A DNA stretch of 64,000 nt from Paenibacillus sp. YYML68 (lineage in GTDB: Bacteria > Bacillota > Bacilli > Paenibacillales > NBRC-103111), in contig NZ_BQYI01000001.1 of NCBI RefSeq assembly GCF_027923405.1, positions 1,094,501 through 1,158,500 of the forward strand, given 5' to 3'. Numbering within the stretch: the stretch's first letter is position 1; the number at the start of each line of letters is the position of its first letter. The position numbers were made by a program, and so were the translations under genes. The notes beneath the pieces were generated by a model that saw only the letters and a list, made by a program, of their open reading frames with translations, was not told where the DNA came from and did no database searches. This document shows, one piece after another, positions 19,694 to 30,245 of the stretch.

Positions 19694-20046
19694 CGATATG
19701 ACCTCCTTGGTCCTGTATACTTATTGGTTGTAGGTATGTATCCAGTAGTATGTAACAAGGCGAATAGATTTATGTTAGGTAGTGCCAATTGAGGCGAATA
19801 TGGGCTGGCAGTCGGAGGGGCGTAGGTATTGGGTGGAAAAATCCGCCGCAGCCGCACTCGCGCTGCGGCCAAAGTCGCTCCAGCTGCGGGCACGGCGGGC
19901 GGGTGCAGCAGCTCAGTGGGGACAGCACCGTGTACGGCGGGCGGGTCCGGCAGCGTCTATAGCAGCGACTACAGTGGCAAAGCAGCCATGATGATTGCAG
20001 CTTCGAGCTCAGCCATGGACTCCAGCTGCGGCGGGAAGGAGTGCTT
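19694..20046. other. Intergenic region between nupN and dps
   Basis: The 100 bases next to nupN are AT-richer and should hold its promoter, though no convincing -35/-10 pair stands out. From about 19840 the DNA is very GC-rich; on the plus strand it reads as Cys/Gly/Ser/Ala-rich sequence without a ribosome site. I could not identify a gene there; it may be coding remnant or spacer. Confidence 0.4.
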
Positions 20047-20532
20047 CTACGACTGCAGACAGGAGTCCAGCATCCATACTTGCTTCTGCAGCTCGGTGCG
20101 GATACCGTTTAGCATGTCATGTGTGCCCTCGTCGCTCGCGCCTTCTGCAGCCTGCATCGTCTGCTCCAGCTCGCTGATGAGCTGCTTGAAGTCGTCGCGC
20201 ACCGACTTGATCATCGCCTCGGCCGACGTGAGTGGGGCGTGCTCCTTGATCGTGGCAAGCTCTGTGATCTCCTTCAGCGTCGATACCGGCTTGCCGTTCA
20301 AGGCGAGCAGACGCTCCGCCAGTTCGTCCAGCGTTTGGGCTGCTGCCGTATACAGCTCCTCGAACTTCTCATGTAGCGTGATAAATTGCGGTCCCTTAAC
20401 GAACCAGTGATGCTGATGCAGCTTGATGTGCAGAAACGCCCAGTTGGCGACCTGTTGGTTCAACAGCGTCAGCAGATTGCCGCTGACCTGCGCTTGTGTG
20501 CCGGTTCGTTCCTTGTCGAGTACAGTTGCCAT
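20047..20532 (-). CDS. dps: Dps-family DNA-protection/ferritin-like protein
   Basis: 161 residues, the normal length. The ferroxidase signature is clear: 'HIKLHQHHWFVKGPQFITLH' (about residues 35-54) followed by 'EKFEELYTAAAQTLDELAER'. Dps proteins form 12-subunit shells that oxidise and store iron and shield DNA during oxidative or stationary stress. Start ATG with AAGGAGGCG upstream. It is divergent from the rsbV-rsbW-sigB operon; in B. subtilis dps is a sigma-B target, but I see no sigma-B-type promoter on this strand. A 9-bp tandem repeat tract lies 40-110 bases upstream of its start. Confidence 0.92.
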   Translation of the reverse strand: MATVLDKERTGTQAQVSGNLLTLLNQQVANWAFLHIKLHQHHWFVKGPQFITLHEKFEELYTAAAQTLDELAERLLALNGKPVSTLKEITELATIKEHAPLTSAEAMIKSVRDDFKQLISELEQTMQAAEGASDEGTHDMLNGIRTELQKQVWMLDSCLQS

Positions 20533-20568
20533 CGTTGAACGCCTCCTTGAGTGTGGTCATTGCTCCTT

Positions 20569-20643
20569 GTTGACACCAGTGACGCCAGTGACACCATTGA
20601 CGCCAGTAACGCCAGTGACACCATTGACGTCAATAACGCCATG
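20569..20643. repeat. 9-bp tandem repeat tract in the dps upstream region
   Basis: About seven to eight head-to-tail copies of a 9-base unit, GACGCCAGT with variants GACACCAGT, GACACCATT, AACGCCAGT and GACGTCAAT. The order (…CCAGT, CCAGT, CCATT…) also suggests a weak 27-base super-period. It lies between the divergent dps and rsbV genes, in or near the dps promoter. Confidence 0.8.
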
Positions 20644-20733
20644 GAAGCCAGAACAGCCTGGCTCCTTACGCTGAGCGTCTTCTCAAGGTTTTCCCGGTCA
20701 GGTGAAAATCATCCAAGGTTGGCGGGCGTAATT

Positions 20734-20759
20734 GTTTCGCAGCTTGCTAGTAGGGGTAT
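20734..20759 (+). promoter_or_regulatory. Sigma-B-type promoter of the rsbV-rsbW-sigB operon
   Basis: GTTTCG at 20734-20739, 14 bases, then GGGTAT at 20754-20759, very close to the B. subtilis sigma-B consensus GTTTAA-N(12-15)-GGGTAT. A start near 20768 gives a leader of about 75 bases before the GTG at 20843. It implies positive autoregulation of the sigma factor. Confidence 0.75.
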
Positions 20760-20842
20760 TAAATGAATGAATCAGACACCGCGCAGATGATATACATAGA
20801 CATGTATAGACAAGCAGCGGCGAAGGAGGGCAAGATTGGATC

Positions 20843-21175
20843 GTGGAGAAGCGGGACAGCTTTCAGCTAACGACGCTGCGAAGCGAGCAGCGCAATACGG
20901 TTTATATTCAAGGTGAGCTTGATCTGTCGAAGGTTGGGGAGCTCCGCTCGGTGCTCGACTGCCTCATTGCCGATACGGGCCGTGAGCTGGTGCTCAGCCT
21001 CAAGGAGCTTACGTATATTGACAGCACGGGAATCGGTGTCATCGTATCGGTGCTGAAGGCTCGAGATGTGCTGCAGGCGTCGTTCCGGGTGGAGAACGTT
21101 CCGCCTAACATCAAGCGGCTGTTTGATATGACGGGATTGACGAAGTTTTTGCGTATGGACACTGTCGAGGCGTAG
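20843..21175 (+). CDS. rsbV: STAS anti-sigma factor antagonist (RsbV-like) of the sigB operon
   Basis: 110 residues, single STAS domain, phosphorylatable Ser in 'YIDSTGIGVIVSVLKA', C-terminal 'IKRLFDMTGLTKFL'. Unphosphorylated, it should bind the RsbW-like kinase encoded 51 bases downstream and free the sigma factor; phosphorylation inactivates it. GTG start with AAGGAGG upstream. It is strikingly similar to the STAS protein at 14025, especially around the Ser site and C-terminus, suggesting gene duplication. It is the first gene behind a sigma-B-type promoter. Confidence 0.92.
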   Translation: MEKRDSFQLTTLRSEQRNTVYIQGELDLSKVGELRSVLDCLIADTGRELVLSLKELTYIDSTGIGVIVSVLKARDVLQASFRVENVPPNIKRLFDMTGLTKFLRMDTVEA

Positions 21176-21226
21176 TGATGCGAGCTTTTCGACAAATACG
21201 GGTTATGAAAGGATCGAGGCATATTC

Positions 21227-21670
21227 ATGAGTTCAAGCGTTGTGTGTCTAACCGTACCTGCCGAGCCCGAATACATTGACCTGGTTCGACTGACGTTATT
21301 TGGCATCAGCTCGAAGCTCGGCTTTTCGTTCGAGGAGATAGAAGATATGAAGGTCGCCGTTGCCGAGGCCTGCAACAACGCGGTGCTGCACGCGTATGAC
21401 CCTGGGAGTCCGGGCGTGATGGAGATTCGGTTCGAGCGTCTTGCCTCAGGCTTGCGCATTAAGGTGAAGGATGAGGGACCGAGCTTCGATTATACGGCCA
21501 AGGCGCGAGCGGCGGAGTCGCTGCACGATAAGCTGCTCGACGACATTCATGCCGGAGGGCTCGGCATCTACCTGATGCAGGCGCTAATGGATGAGGTCGA
21601 GGTGAATACGGGCTTCGGGACCGAGGTTGTGTTGACGAAGCGGCTTGTGCGAAGTGAGGAAATGGTATGA
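21227..21670 (+). CDS. rsbW: RsbW-like anti-sigma serine kinase
   Basis: 147 residues, GHKL ATPase fold. N-box 'IEDMKVAVAEACNNAVLHAY', 'IKVKDEGPSFD' (D-box) and 'HAGGLGIYLMQALMDEVEV' (G-box) are all intact, so it should both bind the sigma factor and phosphorylate the STAS antagonist. Its stop overlaps the start of the sigma gene by four bases (ATGA), ensuring balanced synthesis. It is the active-looking counterpart of the degenerate homolog at 14357. ATG start with AAAGGA upstream. Confidence 0.93.
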   Translation: MSSSVVCLTVPAEPEYIDLVRLTLFGISSKLGFSFEEIEDMKVAVAEACNNAVLHAYDPGSPGVMEIRFERLASGLRIKVKDEGPSFDYTAKARAAESLHDKLLDDIHAGGLGIYLMQALMDEVEVNTGFGTEVVLTKRLVRSEEMV

Positions 21671-22446
21671 GTGGAATTCCGGAGCGAATGGTGCAGGTAA
21701 GCACGGAGGAGCTCATTCAGAGCTACCAGTCTACGGGCTGCAACGATACTGCGACGCTTTTGCTCCAGCGCTACGAGTCGATGGTAAGAATGGCGGCTGC
21801 GAAGATGTCGCGCAATCGTCCCGATCTGTTCGAGGACTTGTACCAGGTCGGTCAGATGTCGGTGCTGAAGCTGCTGAAGCAGTTCAAGCCGAGCATGGGC
21901 GTCCAGTTCGAGGCATATATGATGAAGAGCGTCATCGGTCATATGAAAAATTACTTGCGCGACAAGTCCTGGTACGTGCAAGTGCCGCGACGCATTAAGG
22001 AAAAAGGAAGCCGTATCCAGCATGTCGTCGACCAGCTGACGGTCCAGCTCGAACGCTCGCCGAACGTGGAGGAGATCGCTGCCGTCATGGAGCTGTCGGT
22101 CGAGGAGACGATCGAGATATTGGCCGGACGGGACTATTACCATTACATATCGCTCGATACTCCGCTGTCGTCCGATGAGAGCGGCTCGACGATCGGCGAT
22201 GTCATCGGCAGTCCGGGCGATGCGTACTCGCACGTGGAGAACCGGCTCGCGATGGAGCAGGCGATGACACATTTGAAGCCCGAGGAGCAGAAGGTGCTGA
22301 AGCTCATCTTCGAGGAGGGCCACTCGCAGCGGCTGATCGCCCAGCAGCTTGGCGTATCGCAGATGAGCGTCTCCCGCATCCAGAAGCGCGCCCTCGACAA
22401 GCTGAAGCTGCACCTGCAAGAGCCTGACGGCGAGGCGGATCATTAA
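21667..22446 (+). CDS. sigB: Sigma-B/F-family RNA polymerase sigma factor
   Basis: 259 residues with regions 2 ('DLFEDLYQVGQMSVLKLLKQ', 'FEAYMMKSVIGHMKNYLRD'), 3 ('VPRRIKEKGSRIQHVVDQLT', 'NVEEIAAVMELSVEE') and 4 ('LKPEEQKVLKLIFEEGHSQR', 'IAQQLGVSQMSVSRIQKRAL'), matching the general-stress/sporulation SigB/F/G group. Kept inactive by the RsbW-like protein encoded immediately upstream. The operon order V-W-sigma and the upstream sigma-B-type promoter favour a general stress sigma factor over SigF; no spoIIA-type genes are nearby. Last gene before the palindromic repeat array. Confidence 0.9.
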   Translation: MSGIPERMVQVSTEELIQSYQSTGCNDTATLLLQRYESMVRMAAAKMSRNRPDLFEDLYQVGQMSVLKLLKQFKPSMGVQFEAYMMKSVIGHMKNYLRDKSWYVQVPRRIKEKGSRIQHVVDQLTVQLERSPNVEEIAAVMELSVEETIEILAGRDYYHYISLDTPLSSDESGSTIGDVIGSPGDAYSHVENRLAMEQAMTHLKPEEQKVLKLIFEEGHSQRLIAQQLGVSQMSVSRIQKRALDKLKLHLQEPDGEADH

Positions 22447-22448
22447 GC

Positions 22449-22491
22449 AAACGCGTTCCTTGTTCATTGAGGGCGCGTTTTGTTATGTTGG
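22449..22491 (+). terminator. Probable terminator of the sigB operon
   Basis: AAACGCG pairs with CGCGTTT across a loop that can pair a little further (TTC/GGG), followed by TGTTATGTT. The repeat array starts directly afterwards. Confidence 0.5.
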
Positions 22492-22495
22492 GGCG

Positions 22496-23729
22496 CGTTT
22501 GGGTGGCGCAGGCGGGATAGCGCACGAACCGTGCGCTAACATCGCCGCGCGGTGGGCACGCGGGCGTGGCGCAGGCGGGATAGCGCACGAACCGTGCGCT
22601 AACATCGCCGCGCGTTGGGCGCGCCAGGGTGGCGCAGGCGGTATAGCGCACGAACCGTGCGCTAACGTCGCCGCGCGGGTGGCGCGCCAGGGAGGCGCAG
22701 GCGGTATAGCGCACGAAAGGTGCGCTAACATCGCCGCGCGGGTGGCGCGCCAGCGTGGCGCAGGCGGTATAGCGCACGAAAGGTGCGCTAACATCGCCGC
22801 GCGGGTGGCGCGCCAGCGTGGCGCAGGCGGTATAGCGCACGAACCGTGCGCTAACGTCGCCGCGCGGTGGGCACGCCAGCGTGGCGCAGGCGGGATAGCG
22901 CACGAACCGTGCGCTATCCGCGCCGCGCAGGTGGCGCGCCAGCGTGACGCAGGCGGTATAGCGCACGAACCGTGCGCTAATGAGGCCACGCGATGGGCGC
23001 GCCAGCGTGACGCAGGCGGTATAGCGCACGAACCGTGCGCTAATGAGGCCACGCGATGGGCGCGCCAGCGTGACGCAGGCGGTATAGCGCACGAACCGTG
23101 CGCTAACATCGCCGCGCGGTGGGCACGCCATCGTGGCGCAGGCGTTATAGCGCACGAACCGTGCGCTAACGATGCCGCGCGGGTGGTGCGCGCCATCGTG
23201 GCGCAGGCGTTATAGCGCACGAACCGTGCGCTAACGACGCTGCGCGGTGCGCGTGCCAGCGTGGCGCAGGCGTTATAGCGCACGAACCGTGCGCTATCCG
23301 CGCCGCGCGGGTGGGCACGCCATCGTGGCGCAGGCGGTATAGCGCACGAACCGTGCGCTAACGTCGCCGCGCAGGTGGCGCGCCAGCGTGACGCAGGCGG
23401 TATAGCGCACGAACCGTGCGCTAATGAGGCCACGCGATGGGCGCGCCAGCATGACGCAGGCGGGATAGCGCACGAACCGTGCGCTATCCGCGCCGCGCGG
23501 GTGGGCACGCCATCGTGGCGCAGGCGGTATAGCGCACGAACCGTGCGCTAACGTCGCCGCGCAGGTGGCGCGCCAGCGTGACGCAGGCGGTATAGCGCAC
23601 GAACCGTGCGCTAATGAGGCCACGCGATGGGCGCGCCAGCATGACGCAGGCGGTATAGCGCACGAACCGTGCGCTAACATCGCCGCGTAGGTGGCACGCC
23701 AGCATGACGCAGGCGGTATAGTTGTTTTT
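22496..23729 (+). repeat. Palindromic tandem array 1: 63-bp units, 19 full copies plus a partial
   Basis: Cores start at 22518, 22581, 22644, 22707, 22770, 22833, 22896, 22959, 23022, 23085, 23148, 23213, 23276, 23340, 23403, 23466, 23530, 23593 and 23656; a truncated unit stops at about 23720. The period is 63 bp with a few 64-65 steps. Each unit has stem TAGCGCAC, loop GAACC (GAAAG in units 4 and 5) and stem GTGCGCTA, then a CGCCA/TGGCG mini-hairpin, weakened in units with TGACG. The intervening sequence is also repeated, mainly in a CGCCGCGC form and a TGAGGCCACG form. A block of about 190 bp from 23311 recurs at 23501. Very GC-rich; long open frames here are by-products of a period divisible by three. 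Confidence 0.95.
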
Positions 23730-23775
23730 AATAGAATACGTCACGCCTTGAGTGGTGGCCTTGTGAAATGAGAAC

Positions 23776-23804
23776 TTGTAGCATATAGACTGTTGAGTTA
23801 TAAT
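23776..23804 (+). promoter_or_regulatory. Promoter upstream of the nuclease-like gene
   Basis: TTGTAG at 23776-23781, a 17-base spacer and a perfect TATAAT at 23799-23804. Expected start near 23811. The transcript would meet the strong terminator at 23843-23885 before reaching the gene at 23926. Confidence 0.6.
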
Positions 23805-23842
23805 TTAGTGAAATAAATTCATACTTATCGGACGTGAAGCAC

Positions 23843-23885
23843 ACGCCGCTCATTCTTAAATAGAATGGAGCGGCGTTTTTGTTTT
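23843..23885 (+). terminator. Strong terminator in the leader of the nuclease-like gene
   Basis: ACGCCGCTC plus ATTCT pairs with AGAAT plus GAGCGGCGT around a 5-base TAAAT loop, followed by TTTTTGTTTT. It lies between the promoter at 23776 and the gene at 23926, so it could be an attenuator or end a small RNA of about 75 nt. Confidence 0.85.
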
Positions 23886-23925
23886 GACCAGCTTAAGCTG
23901 TAGTTAATCGTAAGTGAGGGTGATA

Positions 23926-24606
23926 ATGAAGATGCGATTGGCAGAGGATGTATACGAAGCTTTCATGAAAGAACAGGTCCTCAAAGCAACGGGTGACCGA
24001 AAAAGGAGGTTAGCCGATGGACTAGGTCATGCCGAAAGGTTGTTTCTTGAGCAGGTATGGTGGCCGGCTGTTGGACATTTTGATTATCTTCATGCGGAGT
24101 ATGAAGTGAGGGATTTTAAGGATGGACGAAGGTATGTGGATTTTGCTTATCTGCGACCACCGTATAAGGTCTGTATAGAACTTGATGGTTATGGGCCACA
24201 TTGCCGTGAAATTACCCGAGCTCAGTTCGCAGATCAACTCATCAGGCAAAATCATCTCGTGTTAGATCAATGGATCGTGTTTCGCTTCGCTTACGATGAA
24301 ATTAAAGAGAAGCCGCGACAGTGTCAGCAAACGATCTTGCAGCTCATGGGTAACTGGTATGGTGATTTCAAGCATGTGGAGTGCGACATAAATTACAAGG
24401 AACGAGAAGTGCTGCGCTTCGCAGCACAGAAGCTAGGAGTCGTATCTCCCGTTGAGCTTAGTAAGCATATGGGTGTTAGTACGCGTGTTGTTCGGGAGTT
24501 GCTGCATGCTCTATGTAAAAAGGAACTGCTTGTTCCGTTATCCGGAGTGTCGAGGATACGCTCGTATGGTCTCCATCCAAGGTGGAAAGGATGGGCTATG
24601 CTGTGA
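23926..24606 (+). CDS. Restriction-endonuclease-fold protein (DUF559/Vsr-like) with C-terminal winged helix
   Basis: 226 residues. The middle section reads like a PD-(D/E)XK nuclease core: 'RYVDFAYLRP' (Asp72), 'KVCIELDGYGPH' (Glu85, Asp87), 'DQLIRQNHLVLDQWIVFRFA' and 'YDEIKEKPRQCQQTILQL', as in DUF559/Vsr-like endonuclease domains, with no obvious catalytic Lys after ExD. The C-terminus (about 155-220: 'VVSPVELSKHMGVSTRVVRE') is a winged-helix-like DNA-binding segment. Similar proteins are, to my knowledge, common in Paenibacillus without known function. Its DNA is AT-richer than its neighbours and it is the only gene between the two palindromic arrays. ATG 23926 follows GAGGG; an in-frame GTG at 23914 is an alternative. 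Confidence 0.75.
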   Translation: MKMRLAEDVYEAFMKEQVLKATGDRKRRLADGLGHAERLFLEQVWWPAVGHFDYLHAEYEVRDFKDGRRYVDFAYLRPPYKVCIELDGYGPHCREITRAQFADQLIRQNHLVLDQWIVFRFAYDEIKEKPRQCQQTILQLMGNWYGDFKHVECDINYKEREVLRFAAQKLGVVSPVELSKHMGVSTRVVRELLHALCKKELLVPLSGVSRIRSYGLHPRWKGWAML

Positions 24607-24649
24607 TTGTGGTGTAAGGAGTGGCGTGTGTAATAACTTCGTTAGGTAG

Positions 24650-25735
24650 CGCTCAGCCAGCGCCATAGCGCACGAACCGTGCGCTATCGCCGTCGCGCGC
24701 CGCGCGCCCAAGCGCTCTGCCAGCGCAATAGCGCACGAAGCGTGCGCTATTGCCGTCGCGTGTGCCGCACGCCCCAGCGCTCAGCCAGCGCAATAGCGCA
24801 CGAACCGTGCGCTATCGCCGCCGCACGCCCCACGCGCCAGCGCCTCGCAGGCGCAATAGCGCACGAACCGTGCGCTATTGCCGCCGCGCGCCGCGCGCCC
24901 GAGCGCTCAGCCAGCGCAATAGCGCACGAACCGTGCGTTATCGCCGTCGCACGCCCCACGCGCCAGCGCCTCGCAGGCGCAATAGCGCACGAACCGTGCG
25001 CTATCGCCGTCGCGCGCCGCGCGCCCAAGCGCTCAGCCAGCGCAATAGCGCACGAAACGTGCGCTATTGCCGTCGCGCGCCGCGCGCCCAAGCGCTCAGC
25101 CAGCGCAATAGCGCATGAACCGTGCGCTATCGCCGTCGCACGCCCCACGCGCCAGCGCCTCGCAGGCGCAATAGCGCACGAACCGTGCGCTATCGCCGCC
25201 GCGCGCCGCGCGCCCGAGCGCTCAGCCAGCGCAATAGCGCACGAAACGTGCGCTACCGCCGCGGCGCGCCTCCCGCGCCAGCGCCTCGCAGGCGCCATAG
25301 CGCACGAATGGTGCGCTATTGCCGTCGCGCGCCTCCCGCGCCAGCGCCTCGCAGGCGCCATAGCGCACGAATGGTGCGCTATTGCCGTCGCGCGCCCCGC
25401 GCGCCAGCGCCTCGCAGGCGCAATAGCGCACGAACCGTGCGCTATCGCCGCCGCGCCCCGCGTGCCTGCGCTCTGCCAGCGCAATAGCGCACGAAGCATG
25501 CGCTATGGCCGTCGCGCGCCCCGCGTGCTAGCGCTCAGCCAGCGCCATAGCGCACGAACCGTGCGCTATCGCCGTCGCGCGCCCCCCGCGCCAGCGCCTC
25601 GCAGGCGCAATAGCGCACGAACCGTGCGCTATCGCCGTCGCGCGCCCCCCGCGCCAGCGCCTCGCAGGCGCTATAGCGCACGAACCGTGCGCTATCGCCG
25701 CCGCGCGCCCCCCGCGCCAGCGCCTCGCTAAGCCT
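24650..25735 (+). repeat. Palindromic tandem array 2: 63-bp units, 17 copies
   Basis: Cores start at 24666, 24729, 24794, 24857, 24920, 24983, 25046, 25109, 25172, 25235, 25298, 25361, 25424, 25485, 25548, 25611 and 25674. Same orientation and same core as array 1 (stem ATAGCGCAC / GTGCGCTAT), with loops GAACC, GAAGC, GAAAC and GAATG. Each unit has a second hairpin of one of two kinds: GCGCT-CAGCC-AGCGC or GCGCCT-CGC-AGGCGC. In the first half the two kinds often alternate. The last unit runs into the stop codon of the minus-strand araC-type gene (25728-25730). Confidence 0.95.
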
Positions 25736-26651
25736 CGCCCTGCATGCGCTGCTTGAACGTTCTCGGCGAGCATTGGTTGTGGCGCTTGAACAGCTTGTAG
25801 AACTGCGCCATGTTCGGAATGCCGACGCGCTCGCCGATCTCCGCGATGCTGAGGTCTTGCGTCAGTAGGAGGCGTTCGGCCGTCTTGATGCGCTTATAGT
25901 TGACATAATCCACGAACGACAGGCCGATCACCTTATGGAACCGCTTGATGAAATAGTGGTAGCTCAGATGCACCAGCTCGCACACGTCCTCCACCGTCAG
26001 CTTCTCCGTCAGATGGCGGTCGATATAATCGAGCGCGGGCTGCAGCCGCACCAGCTCCGCGTCCTGTGCGCCATAGCCGAGCAGCGAGCGGGTATCGCTG
26101 CGTATGAACAGCAGGAGCAGCTGCTTGATCGCTGCGCTGACGGCCAGCTCGTAGCCGCGCCCGCGCGCCTGCGCCTCCCGGAAGATCGTCATAACGAGGG
26201 CGAAGGCGTCTTGCCGGGCGCGAGCATTTTCGACCCAGATGTAATTCAGACGACTCAGTGGCTCGGTCAGCTCCGAGAATGCGCTCAAGTACGGCAGTGT
26301 GCTCTGGTCTATATGCCTCGTCAGATCGACCTGGAACACGACATAACGGAGTTCCTCGGCCGAGGCACGCTGCGTGCGATGAAGCTGGGACGAGCCTAAC
26401 GTGTACACATCCCCCGGCCCGAGCACGGTGTAATCGTCCTGCGTCTGCACGCCGAGCCGTCCCTCCAGCATGACGAGCAGCTCGACCTCCTTATGGTAAT
26501 GCCACTTCATCGGCGCAGGCGGCTGCTCCATTGATAGGGAGTCGGATGGCTCCGAGCGAATCTCCCATATTTTCAGGAAGAGAAGCGGGTTCTGGTAGAC
26601 GACGTCCTCGATGATGACATCAGTTGCGGCGGCGTTCGGCAGGCTGGTCAT
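25728..26651 (-). CDS. AraC-family transcriptional regulator with cupin sensor domain
   Basis: About 307 residues. The N-terminal cupin-like ligand domain (about 45-130: 'MKWHYHKEVELLVMLEGRLG', 'LGPGDVYTLGSSQLHRTQ') is followed by two helix-turn-helix motifs at about 210-305 ('LTVEDVCELVHLSYHYFIKR', 'LSIAEIGERVGIPNMAQFYK'). Such proteins usually activate sugar-utilisation genes. It is divergent from the ThuA-like gene, its most likely target (inference). ATG 26651 is chosen with AGGAGG about 12 bases upstream; the frame stays open further upstream without a site. Its stop codon abuts palindromic array 2. Confidence 0.9.
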   Translation of the reverse strand: MTSLPNAAATDVIIEDVVYQNPLLFLKIWEIRSEPSDSLSMEQPPAPMKWHYHKEVELLVMLEGRLGVQTQDDYTVLGPGDVYTLGSSQLHRTQRASAEELRYVVFQVDLTRHIDQSTLPYLSAFSELTEPLSRLNYIWVENARARQDAFALVMTIFREAQARGRGYELAVSAAIKQLLLLFIRSDTRSLLGYGAQDAELVRLQPALDYIDRHLTEKLTVEDVCELVHLSYHYFIKRFHKVIGLSFVDYVNYKRIKTAERLLLTQDLSIAEIGERVGIPNMAQFYKLFKRHNQCSPRTFKQRMQGEA

Positions 26652-26856
26652 GGCGTGGGGGCCTCCTATCTGTAGGGCGATATTGCATATATGCGTACGA
26701 TCATAATTCTCAGACTCTATGAACGTTATCATAGCACAGACGCTCGGCCGAGAACACAATCGAATATAGATCGGGCACAATTCAGCATATCTTTGGGCCT
26801 GTTGATTCAATATACTGGTAGTAATACGAATGATGAAGCCGAAGGGGATGGATGCG

Positions 26857-27585
26857 ATGAGCAGCAAGCTGCGAGTTACGATCTGGAACGAATTCCGTCA
26901 TGAGAAAGAAAACGAGAAGGTGCGTTCGGTGTATCCGAACGGCATCCATACGGCGATCGGCGAAGGCCTCGCCCATGAGGTCGAGGTGACGTACGCGACG
27001 CTGGACGAGCCTGAGCATGGGCTGAGTGAGCAGCGCTTGAATGAGACGGATGTGCTCATCTGGTGGGGGCACAAGGCGCATGGGGATGTGCAGGATTACA
27101 TCGTGGAGCGCGTGCAGCAGCGGGTATGGCAAGGGATGGGCTTGATCGTGCTGCATTCTGGACATTTCTCCAAGGTGTTCAAGCGGCTGATGGGCACGTC
27201 CTGCGACTTGAAGTGGCGCGAGGCCGACGAGAAGGAGCGCATCTGGGTCGTCGCCCCGAACCATCCGATCGCAGAGGGCATCGGGGAATACATCGAGCTG
27301 CCTGCGGAGGAGATGTATGGCGAGCACTTCGACATTCCGGCGCCGGACGAGCTCATTATGGTGAGCTGGTTCGAGGGCGGCGAGGTGTTCCGATCCGGCT
27401 GCACGTTCTCAAGAGGCCAAGGGAAGATCTTCTACTTCCGTCCCGGCCACGAGACGTACCCGACGTACTACAACGAGCAGGTGCGCCGCGTCATCCGCAA
27501 CGCCGTCCATTGGGCCGCGCCGACGACGCGCGAGTATCCGAAGTATGGCAATCATCAGCCGCTGGAGTCGATTAAGGGCAAGTAG
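26857..27585 (+). CDS. ThuA-like domain protein (trehalose utilisation family)
   Basis: About 242 residues of the ThuA family (class I glutamine-amidotransferase-like fold): '[20 protein letters not shown]' near the N-terminus, '[18 protein letters not shown]' near 70, '[20 protein letters not shown]' near 100, '[15 protein letters not shown]' near 200. ThuA proteins are linked to trehalose and related sugar metabolism; the exact reaction is not settled. Start taken at the ATG with AAGGGG 9 bases upstream; an in-frame ATG at 26830 is less likely. Divergent from the AraC-type regulator. A terminator follows. Confidence 0.88.
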
Positions 27586-27630
27586 TGTCGACTTTAAGTA
27601 AGTGAATATGTAGGATGTGTTATTTAATCA

Positions 27631-27673
27631 GAGCTTCTGTTGCCCCCCGATAAGGAGGGGTCAGGAGCTTTTT
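27631..27673 (+). terminator. Terminator after the ThuA-like gene
   Basis: AGCTTCTG pairs with CAGGAGCT and the inner CCCC with GGGG, ending in TTTTT. Confidence 0.75.
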
Positions 27674-27795
27674 AGTTATCATAAGTGTTGTGATAAGGAT
27701 AATCACTGTGCGCTATCAGGTTATATATTAATTACTAAACGGTACATGCTATTAGAGATGAGGTTGGTGGACATATTGCCTGCATGAGTTCTTCT

Positions 27796-28089
27796 TCAAG
27801 GACCGAGGAGAATCGTACCAGCTACCATATACATTGGAAAGGCAAGTAGACATATTAAATTAAGTAGTATTAACATTACGTCGATTTTATTTTCAAACAA
27901 TTTGAATGAGCGGCCAGCGACTAATATGCCAACTGGAGGTAAGATCCATGTACTAGCTACTCCGAATCCATCTATCCACATCGTGTTAGATGTGTTCGCC
28001 AAATCAATGAAAAATAACACACTTGCAATGGACACTGTTGCAGCTGCTATTAGACGATAGGTATTAACATTAGATGTAATTGTGATCAT
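27796..28089 (-). CDS. Small membrane protein, promoter region split by an IS
   Basis: About 97 residues with three hydrophobic segments ('AAATVSIASVLFFIDLA', 'ILPPVGILVAGRSF', 'VMLILLNLICLLAFPMYMVA'). No family recognised. The start is uncertain: ATG 28089 directly abuts AAGGAG; ATG 28098 lies upstream of that. The IS4-like element at 28109-29580 is inserted just ahead of the gene, separating it from the AT-rich DNA (29590-29679) that would have carried its promoter, so it may now be silent or driven from the IS end. Confidence 0.5.
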   Translation of the reverse strand: MITITSNVNTYRLIAAATVSIASVLFFIDLANTSNTMWIDGFGVASTWILPPVGILVAGRSFKLFENKIDVMLILLNLICLLAFPMYMVAGTILLGP

Positions 28090-28108: not shown

Positions 28109-29580
28109 CAGTAGCGTTGCATAAATCATGACATCTAAAATGGTGGAATATTCAGAAATTAGTTTTCAAATTCCAAGGGCCAAAAACTTACGGGGTACCC
28201 CTGAAACAGGCAGTTGCTGTCCATTTGTAATATTCATCCTTTTCAAGTTGATGATTGGTTTTTTCGACTTAGGCGACTTACTGGTCTTTCTGTTTCTTCT
28301 GTCGCCCTCTCGAAGTTCGACTTGGTTTTCGCTCTACTGCTGCGACCATCCTCAGCCACGGTTGCCACATGAGTTCTTTCAAAGCCTCAATGAGTTCCGT
28401 TAACGTTCGACTCGTTCCCAGTTCTAGCTTCATAAGCAGCAGCAAGCAGTATGCAATTAAACAGATCCAAATCTGATTCATCACTGCGTTCTCGCTGTCA
28501 CCGTAAAAACAGGTTAGCTTCAGGTTCTGCTTGACCCACCGGAAGAACATCTCGATCTGCCAGCGGCTACGATACAGGTCACCAAGCTCTTCTGCCGTCA
28601 GGTCGAACCGATTCGTAATGATACGGACCTCATTACCGCGACCGTCTGTGGTGACGATCATACGAAGGGGTGCTGCATGCGCTTGTGAGCTTTGCCTAGC
28701 ACGACTTTGACATCGCGGATGATGTCTGAATCTGTGTTCACCGAAAGTTCTTCCACTTCTTCGACAACAGCATTGTCCTTTAATCGTGATACGAATCGAA
28801 TGCCACGCTCGCAGTAACTGTCGTATTTGCCGTAGTCCAGATACCCGCGGTCCATCAGATACGTGACGTCCGACTCATCGATCAGGACGTCCTTTTGGCT
28901 GCGGTCTGCGGGCCTTGCAGGCGTAACCACTGCCTTATCCGGATAAACATGGTCGGGGTCAGCAAATGCCACTCGCAGGTGCAGTTTCACGCCTGCTTTC
29001 GTTTTTCGGAAAGTCGCCCATTTATACCGCTGTAGGCAAACGCTGATCGTAGAAGAGTCTATAATCTTGACCGTTCCGATGCGCCCTGATACCGGCCTAG
29101 CATCTCGATGCAACTGTGTAATGAGATTACAAAGGATGGCTTGAAGTACTTCTGGGTCCAGTTGATTATTTTTACGGGACAACTGGGATGCGCTGATCGA
29201 AGCAATGCCGAGTTGCTTTTGAAATTCCTCGTCGTGCTCCAGCTTTCGCATGATGGAACGAAGACCCTTTCGCTTCTCTAACTGTGCTTCGATGAAGATG
29301 TACAGAAAGACTAAGGTGTCGAGCTTTTTCACATAACGGTCGAGCGTAGTCGTGCTTTGCCAATTCGGGATGATGTTTGGATTTATTGGTGCAACCCATT
29401 TACCAAATGCAGAAAATAGTGTATCCTTGTCCATGCGTATCTCCTAAGTTAGGGATTTGGACAGGGCTACCTGTTACCCTAATTTTAGGAGTTTTTTGTT
29501 GCAGAGGACGACCTATTTATTACAATAATAGCACAATTTGTCCAAGCTGTTCGCGTGTTAGTTTTTATGCAACGCTACTG
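28109..29580 (-). mobile_element. IS4-family-like insertion sequence, 1472 bp
   Basis: Terminal inverted repeats CAGTAGCGTTGCATAAA at both ends (28109 onward and, reversed, ending 29580), with 9-bp duplications ATGTGAGAA outside. It carries one minus-strand DDE transposase gene broken by a single-base frameshift. Intact ends plus perfect duplications indicate a fairly recent insertion, upstream of the small membrane-protein gene. Confidence 0.92.
28278..29434 (-). pseudogene. IS4-like DDE transposase, frameshifted
   Basis: The first frame (29434 down to 28658) has 'TVKIIDSSTISVC' (first Asp) and 'YLMDRGYLDYGKYD' (second Asp), ending in 'HKRMQHPFV'. The second frame (28661-28278) resumes at 'MIVTTDGRGNEVRIITNR' and holds the YREK-type motif 'LYRSRWQIEMFFRWVKQ' (catalytic Glu). 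Adding one C to the CCCC run near 28663 would restore 'HPLRMIVTTD' and one protein of roughly 385 residues. The catalytic triad is split between frames, so the copy is probably inactive unless frameshifting occurs. Confidence 0.85.
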
Positions 29581-29747: not shown

Positions 29748-30245
29748 ATGGCTAGATACAGTGAGGAATTGAAACGCAACATACAACTACGAATGATCCC
29801 CCCGCATAATGAATCCGTGAGTCAGATTGCAAGAGACAGCGGCCTGTCCGAAGGGACGCTGTACAAGTGGCAAAAAGAAGCCCGAGCGAACGGCGCTGTC
29901 GTTCCAGGTGGCGGAGCAGAGCCCGAGAAATGGAGTAGTCGGGATAAGTTTTCGATTGTGCTGGAAACCGCTACGTTGAGCGAAGTCGAACTGGCCGAAT
30001 ACTGTCGTGCCAAAGGACTCTACGCAGAACAGATTGAAGCTTGGCGGGATGCTTGTATGCAAGCCAATGGTGGACTCGCCCAACAGGCATCCCAGCTGCA
30101 AAAAGAACTCCGAACTAAAGAGCGAGAAATGAAAACGCTCACTCGGGAGTTAAAACGAAAGGAAGCTGCTCTAGCCGAAACGGCAGCGCTTCTCGTGCTG
30201 CGAAAAAAGGCACAGTCGATCTGGGGGGACCAAGAGGACGCATGA
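29748..30245 (+). CDS. IS3-like transposase OrfA (helix-turn-helix protein)
   Basis: 165 residues. An N-terminal HTH ('ESVSQIARDSGLSEGTLYKW', about 25-45), a second HTH-like part ('TATLSEVELAEYCRAKGLYA') and a C-terminal Lys/Glu-rich coiled coil ('LRTKEREMKTLTRELKRKEA'). It binds the element's ends and works with the integrase encoded in the overlapping downstream frame. ATG start after AGAGGTGA. Confidence 0.88.
   Translation: MARYSEELKRNIQLRMIPPHNESVSQIARDSGLSEGTLYKWQKEARANGAVVPGGGAEPEKWSSRDKFSIVLETATLSEVELAEYCRAKGLYAEQIEAWRDACMQANGGLAQQASQLQKELRTKEREMKTLTRELKRKEAALAETAALLVLRKKAQSIWGDQEDA

Follow-up and report, generated by a model that had tools for sequence, protein, structure and literature searches.

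To our knowledge, repetitive extragenic palindromes (REPs) and the REP-associated tyrosine transposases (RAYTs) provide the only well-studied example of dispersed palindromes with a bacterial enzyme as partner. According to the passages of PMC8266576 on these repeats, REPs are preceded by a conserved tetranucleotide, REPtrons are built on tnpA-REP, and the spread of REP-type repeats is still an open question. Here we analysed a 64,000-nucleotide stretch of the genome of Paenibacillus sp. YYML68 (contig NZ_BQYI01000001.1, positions 1,094,501 to 1,158,500; the window), in which two tandem arrays of a 21-bp palindrome lie on either side of a gene for a predicted DUF559/Vsr-like nuclease with a winged helix. 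The data suggest an undescribed nuclease-and-palindrome partnership that may spread repeats through bacterial genomes, and no link between DUF559 and palindromes was found in the open-licence PMC papers. On the sequence evidence we see about an even chance that the window exemplifies a REPtron-like partnership of the Paenibacillales, in which the nuclease-winged-helix protein would act on its cognate palindrome. A wider picture is put forward tentatively, at somewhat under even chances: a widespread class of mobile palindromic DNA in Paenibacillales, served by a PD-(D/E)XK/Vsr-type nuclease and not an HUH transposase, with its own 21-bp TA-ended dyad for each protein, an element of ~187 bp with four sites (52-62-52) and, in some genomes, phased satellite arrays.

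Length and spacing of palindromes beside the nuclease genes

Many members of the protein family, in soil bacteria, are encoded beside palindromes of 21-22 bp that begin and end with TA and vary in their letters, for example TAGTCGGA at L188 and TAGCGGAA at L121 (L and G are our handles for loci and genomes), and the length and spacing of these sites are the strongest evidence for the physical association. When TA-palindrome lengths of 16-34 bp were scanned at 100 homolog loci, 65 palindromes of 21 bp were found near the gene (within 1 kb) and 14 far from it, and 15 and 2, respectively, of 22 bp, with 4.3 times as much far DNA as near DNA; palindromes with other end dinucleotides showed no such length peak at the same 100 loci. 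The near-gene palindromes make up 34 distinct locus/arm pairs (22 of 21 bp and 12 of 22 bp) across 28 of the 100 loci and carry 21 different 7-base arms, some perhaps by chance, and eight of the 22-bp palindromes appear to be one orthologous locus in close species. Spacings were tallied for every pair of palindromes separated by at most 130 bp, and a given spacing was entered only once for a locus. Near the genes they were 50-52 bp (19 cases), 61-64 bp (10), 111-116 bp (19, mostly 51 + 62) and 39-40 bp (3), with none at 45-49, 53-60 or 65-73 bp. The far pairs, which are few and come mostly from two arrays, obey the same rule, and palindromes starting with AG or AT gave a weaker echo of it, as expected when sites already counted are read at a shifted position. 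The spacings agree with a period of 10.3-10.5 bp (Rayleigh R about 0.7, and 0.68 at 10.5 bp), and none of 5000 uniform sets matched this. Twenty-one base pairs correspond to two helical turns, spacings of 40, 51, 62-63 and 113 bp are close to 4, 5, 6 and 11 turns, and the sites look helically phased.

A double-stranded site that is read by a dimer, with its neighbours on one face of the helix, would explain both the fixed 21-bp length and the phased spacing. In the partnership that we propose, a cognate 21-bp TA-ended palindrome is the target of a chromosomal DUF559/Vsr-like nuclease with a MarR-like winged helix. The winged helix, as a dimer, would bind each half-site of the double-stranded DNA, and phased neighbouring sites would allow the dimers to assemble on one face. 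The nuclease would nick or cut the DNA at the TA ends or close to them, and repair from other copies, or re-insertion beside them, would lengthen arrays (by 63-bp units here) and seed new intergenic sites; arrays without the gene would be non-autonomous copies, as REPs are for RAYTs. A first-pass annotation of the window, made by a model from the letters, had raised the idea that the protein recognises, cleaves or amplifies the palindrome. The idea stands as a physical association and not as biochemistry, and we infer that the protein binds, and probably cuts, its cognate palindrome.

The phasing and the fixed 21-bp dyads would also suit palindromes that are architectural or regulatory binding sites, with the winged helix coating phased arrays for autoregulation or for insulation of gene 3' ends, the nuclease playing a minor part and the arrays growing by slippage and unequal crossing-over. 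Indeed, alternating unit types within the arrays of the YYML68 genome resemble, by eye, products of unequal crossing-over, and the strand with the GAA loop is the sense strand at the located arrays, none of them divergent, with two flanking genes unsure. Nuclease core residues are, however, kept even in divergent family members, and the sharp-ended dispersed elements described below require a moving mechanism, and we regard this explanation as unlikely.

The association was also apparent from counts of palindromes around the genes. Tandem Repeats Finder (TRF), run on 29 homolog loci, found several with repeats that hold palindromes of the same form in other letters. Perfect palindromes beginning with TAR (loop 3-9) were counted in a discovery set of 40 homologs, from which the motif was partly derived, and in a hold-out set of 60 further homologs. 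The discovery set had 42 in the 107.5 kb within 1 kb of a gene vs 27 in the 646.5 kb beyond, and the hold-out set 29 in 153 kb near vs 13 in 457 kb far. Groups of at least two palindromes with the same arm, one mismatch being allowed, were present at 31 of 100 genes and in 9 of 110 control windows from the same contigs; the nine include one palindrome from three close species and two true arrays (L148, L141), and a few of the 31 look like noise (e.g. L166, L183 and part of L179). Around 21 sigB control loci, no TA-palindrome of 21-22 bp was found in 57.8 kb.

The two control arrays can be described in their own right. That at L148:2482-2936 (G048) is a gene-less 52-bp array of TAACCGGAGAAACTCCGGTTA, ~7 kb from one DUF559 homolog, and its palindrome also adjoins another DUF559 gene of the same contig (L180, G048). 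The small TAGCACCA array at L141:1075-1216 has a spacing of 52-53 bp and lies ~8.5 kb from a DUF559 gene with its own TAGCAAC array. A 695-bp perfect GA dinucleotide run was also reported by TRF at L148:16096-16790 (G048), near a DUF559 homolog.

The position of the palindromes relative to the gene bears on a second alternative, namely homing: the nuclease gene would be a parasite that makes palindrome arrays its home, cutting those that lack it and being copied in by repair, the palindromes being moved otherwise. In the window the gene sits between array copies of the same type and orientation, and at L165:4500-6300 it lies likewise between direct copies of one palindrome block ~1.1 kb apart (by eye). 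Vsr-like homing endonucleases are a recognised family, and the EDxHD type is named in PMC6083498. Palindromes are, however, mostly one-sided (among the 31 loci, 21 downstream only, 7 upstream only and 3 on both sides), and in some low-copy genomes the few palindromes sit at the gene, as in G033 and G012 below; we consider homing a rather unlikely origin of the arrangement.

Arrays of the YYML68 genome and dispersed elements of its relatives

The first-pass annotation had described the arrays as 19 and 17 copies of one shared 63-bp unit. The copy numbers were borne out (TRF gave 19.3 and 17.0, with a period of 63 bp in both arrays), and 36 window palindromes match TAGCGCACNNNNNGTGCGCTA with up to three mismatches vs 0.45 expected from shuffles. 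The feature proved not to be local: 10 arrays were located at 9 places in the genome (5,091,020 bp, one contig). The sharing is limited to the 21-bp palindrome, which is joined in every array to an array-specific 42-bp spacer; the consensus spacers of the window arrays are 71% identical, other pairs 24-52%, and the median over all 45 pairs is 36%. All located arrays have TAGCGCACGAANNGTGCGCTA as consensus, with A7 replaced by C in one, and a modal period of 63 bp, other spacings being 61-65 bp, two of 70 and one of 45 at an array end. A scan of these arrays at lengths of 18-26 bp found 117 TA-palindromes with perfect 7-bp arms, every one of them 21 bp in length. Within any one array, spacers are 80-90% identical. 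With nine spacers in register (array 2 left out), the identity was 0.374 vs 0.339 for circular shifts, of which 9 in 2000 gave as high a value; between spacers there is thus a weak signal, residual or compositional in nature, and a common origin is possible. The second GC-rich hairpin described as usual in the unit is not general, the spacer of the array at 4435 kb being C/T-rich and, on the other strand, G/A-rich (by eye, unfolded).

Genome-wide there are 149 palindrome copies (free loop, at most one mismatch), 128 of them inside located arrays, and 94 adjacent pairs, of which located arrays account for 76. The surplus of ~18 pairs makes at least one further array likely, placed by list order beyond 4.18 Mb; two pattern searches with other loop types gave no location for it. 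A DUF559 gene was not found at eight of the nine located places, the nearest match being a remnant (E 0.1) 5.6 kb from the array at 4546 kb.

At the located arrays, the GAA loop is read on the sense strand of the nearest-ending gene. Five arrays are co-directional with good gene calls, that at 4182 kb is co-directional with an unsure small upstream open reading frame (ORF), and the remaining ones are convergent (at 1013 kb with a left gene that has no Pfam match); none is divergent. The convergent gap noted around the window block is real there and is not shared by several other arrays. The strand agreement is suggestive only, and together with arm letters that vary while pairing is kept it would fit a role at the RNA level, in which sense-strand hairpins at gene 3' ends serve termination, mRNA protection or as guide RNA and the adjacency to DUF559 genes follows. 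A free hairpin needs neither a fixed length of 21-22 bp nor phased spacing, and these disfavour the structured-RNA reading that had been offered for the window. In addition, Rfam gave no match in window positions 20000-28000, no T-run follows the hairpins (by eye), and one-sided changes among own-array variants are not clearly wobble-preserving (by eye), so that an RNA role appears improbable.

As far as searched, the palindrome letters are private to the YYML68 genome. No arrays with these letters were found in 59 other genomes, which gave one 2-mismatch match, or in 103 other genomes of the family, four of which carry a single 1-mismatch copy; a named-species genome collection, from which own or very near records were possibly left out, gave one single palindrome match, and viral contigs gave none. 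By contrast, the protein is common, with 242 homologs and matches in 40 of the 59 other genomes. Judged by fixed letters, the link between protein and palindrome looks refuted, and this test was replaced by a letter-blind one of length, TA ends and spacing. A refutation by letters misleads because the letters vary while the build stays. The check proposed at first pass, co-occurrence of core and protein, thus came out negative by letters (no gene was found at eight of nine array places, and relatives with the protein lack the arrays) and positive when letters were disregarded.

Some genomes of the 60 carry a palindrome in many dispersed copies. Copies of the TARCGGA type number 239 in G029, 179 in G041, 145 in G031, 59 in G020, 28 in G032, 12 in G040 and 9 in G048, and at most five in the other 53 genomes, with none in YYML68; the reversed control pattern never exceeded three per genome. 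They occur both at a DUF559 gene and elsewhere in G029, G031, G041, G020 and G040. The 19 genomes that lack a DUF559 match have no more than three copies each, and seven of the 41 with a match (YYML68 included) have at least nine. Ten stretches of G029 yielded 11 elements that can be aligned with one another, each made of four palindromes over a total of ~187-198 bp, with outer spacings of ~52 bp and a middle spacing of ~62 bp in seven and ~73 bp in four; the elements end at the outer TA, and their flanks are unrelated (by eye). The same four-palindrome layout lies beside a DUF559 gene in other letters at L144 (52, 63, 52) and in TARCGGA letters at L154 (52, 62, 52), and away from a tested gene at L222 (51, 62, 52). 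Among 22 low-copy genomes, 50 TARCGGA copies were counted, and three of these are within 200 bp of a DUF559 gene (at 21, 48 and 189 bp), where a hand estimate expects ~0.02; the only copy of G012 is 1.1 kb from such a gene, and in G033, outside the 22-genome count, both copies adjoin one. It is highly improbable that the elements owe their movement to another enzyme, an unlisted transposase or one of the IS200 Y1 type, with DUF559 genes as passengers in shared intergenic niches. Although YYML68 has two Y1 genes, 8 of 12 genomes with such palindromes gave no match to the Y1 transposase PF01797, among them G041 with its 179 copies (three others have fragments or one copy), and the adjacency to DUF559 genes extends to low-copy genomes.

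Several observations weigh against a partnership of the nuclease with its palindrome. At 72 of the 100 homologs, no perfect TA palindrome of 21-22 bp lies within 1 kb of the gene, and the spacing rule is also followed by arrays remote from DUF559 genes (L148, L141). Covariation between protein and palindrome is weak and not significant (Mantel test, n = 26), with r of 0.17 for the winged helix (356 of 5000 permutations), 0.18 for the recognition helix (389 of 5000) and 0.11 for the nuclease (707 of 5000). No array of this kind was found at the DUF559 paralogs of the YYML68 genome (1,375,710 and 1,822,684) or at a fragment at 2,680,272. About half of the 50 low-copy TARCGGA matches are background (the reversed pattern gave 22), the relation between DUF559 presence and TARCGGA expansion is no more than suggestive over the 60 genomes (hand-calculated p about 0.06), and no target-site duplication beyond TA was seen in the 11 aligned G029 elements (by eye).

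The window and its protein

The features of the window are collected in the table below. The protein is 226 residues long from the ATG, or 230 if the GTG at 23914 is the start. Its first-pass description as a DUF559/Vsr-type nuclease with a DNA-binding tail is retained with a reservation, since the DUF559 match (PF04480) is weak (E 0.003, 17.7 bits vs a curated cut-off of 20.6), as are the winged-helix-type Pfam matches; among 54 aligned homologs, DUF559 is matched by 39 with an E of at most 0.01. E37, D72, E85, D87, H92, Q108 and N109 are invariant across the 54 aligned homologs. The 28 proteins to which a palindrome was assigned, that of the window included, all retain D72 and H92, 26 of them retain E85, and Q108 and N109 vary among them; residues of the D72/E85/H92 type are presumably catalytic, given the type of family. 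Structure-based fold searches matched only the winged-helix half (MarR-like), so that the nuclease call comes from Pfam and residue conservation. NCBIfam gave only matches far below cut-off for the window protein, and PADLOC gave none. Members of the gene family lie mostly on chromosomes: none was found in 50,697 phage records, one in 72,556 plasmid records and one at a viral-contig locus. In both the plasmid and the viral contig, a 22-bp TA palindrome lies no more than 350 bp from the gene. At one DUF559 paralog of the YYML68 genome (L045:3142-3164), a single perfect palindrome, GTTACGATG-GGAAT-CATCGTAAC, which is not TA-ended, stands right after the stop codon.

Features of the window around the two arrays
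Feature	Position	Strand	Description	Source
Array 1	22503..23721	+	19 palindromes TAGCGCACGAANNGTGCGCTA, spacing 63-65 bp, GAA strand = +	TRF, palindrome lists
Array 2	24659..25733	+	17 palindromes, 21-bp core as in array 1, other spacer, spacing 61-65 bp	TRF
Opening 21-bp palindrome of array 1	22518..22538	+	72 bp past the sigma-factor stop codon	
AT-richer DNA	23722..23925	.	39% GC, ~205 bp, from the truncated final unit of array 1 to the gene	
Nuclease-winged-helix gene	23926..24606	+	DUF559/MTES_1575-type domain ~30-145, MarR-like winged helix 148-226	
Sigma-factor gene	21667..22446	+	upstream of array 1; sigB is the first-pass reading, by sequence alone	
AraC-family regulator	25728..26666	-	convergent with array 2	Pfam HTH_18 + HTH_AraC

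The sigma-factor gene has a close homolog in 21 of 24 other genomes of the genus, and downstream of a sigB homolog in another genome of the genus there is a 36-bp tandem array of 13 copies with unrelated letters (L081:2279-2740). Elsewhere in the window, a 27-bp/9-bp tandem repeat, TGACGCCAG, lies at 20570-20641 directly upstream of a Dps-like minus-strand ORF (TRF; by eye). The ORF list also contains, by eye, two neighbouring minus-strand ORFs resembling a split insertion sequence (IS) transposase (28278-29434) and a possible IS3-type orfA (29748-30245).

Comparison with known systems

If the proposed partnership is true, a second, unrelated enzyme class would have its own palindrome code, so that the arrangement would have arisen more than once. 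It would offer some 20 natural candidate protein-site pairs for studies of site recognition, and a model of bacterial satellite DNA in which a short box is constant and the spacer drifts.

The arrays resemble CRISPR (clustered regularly interspaced short palindromic repeats) in their short palindromic repeat, constant period and differing 'spacer', but their spacers repeat within an array and the partner is a lone DUF559 gene. Their exclusion from CRISPR at first pass agrees with these repeated spacers; array-flanking genes with Pfam matches are of other kinds than cas, no dedicated cas search having been made. With miniature inverted-repeat transposable elements and REPINs (paired REPs), the dispersed elements share a short, non-coding build with defined ends, whereas here there are four palindromes at 52-62-52 or 52-73-52 bp and no known parent transposase. 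EDxHD homing endonucleases are possibly of the same broad nuclease class, through a link to Vsr that we assume, but the present protein has a fused winged helix and adjoining palindrome arrays, and no intron or intein was noted, none having been searched for. The CGTC-tagged repeats, which include the neisserial dRS3, are palindromes with a stem of 8-9 and a loop of 4-5 that form large clusters in Neisseriae and have no transposase association, as described in passages of PMC3733652. They carry another tag, a nuclease partner is not described in these passages, and the main text makes no mention of Paenibacill-.

The closest likeness is to REP/BIME (bacterial interspersed mosaic element) sequences with TnpA-REP, which, in the account of PMC8266576, share dispersed intergenic palindromes, tandem or paired mosaics and an enzyme gene near its own palindrome class; as in REPtrons of the same account, the enzyme gene behaves as a chromosomal gene. 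The first-pass view that the locus is not REP/RAYT holds, although its statement that there is no Y1 transposase is wrong genome-wide, the two Y1 genes lying >100 kb from the located arrays. No GTAG-type tetranucleotide precedes the palindrome in the own arrays or the G029 elements, where only the terminal TA is common and the flanks differ. The enzyme here is DUF559/Vsr-like with a winged helix and not a Y1 HUH enzyme, and the fixed 21-bp dyad with its phasing suggests double-stranded recognition. REP/RAYT thus appears to be the nearest known system by its apparent working, and not by membership.

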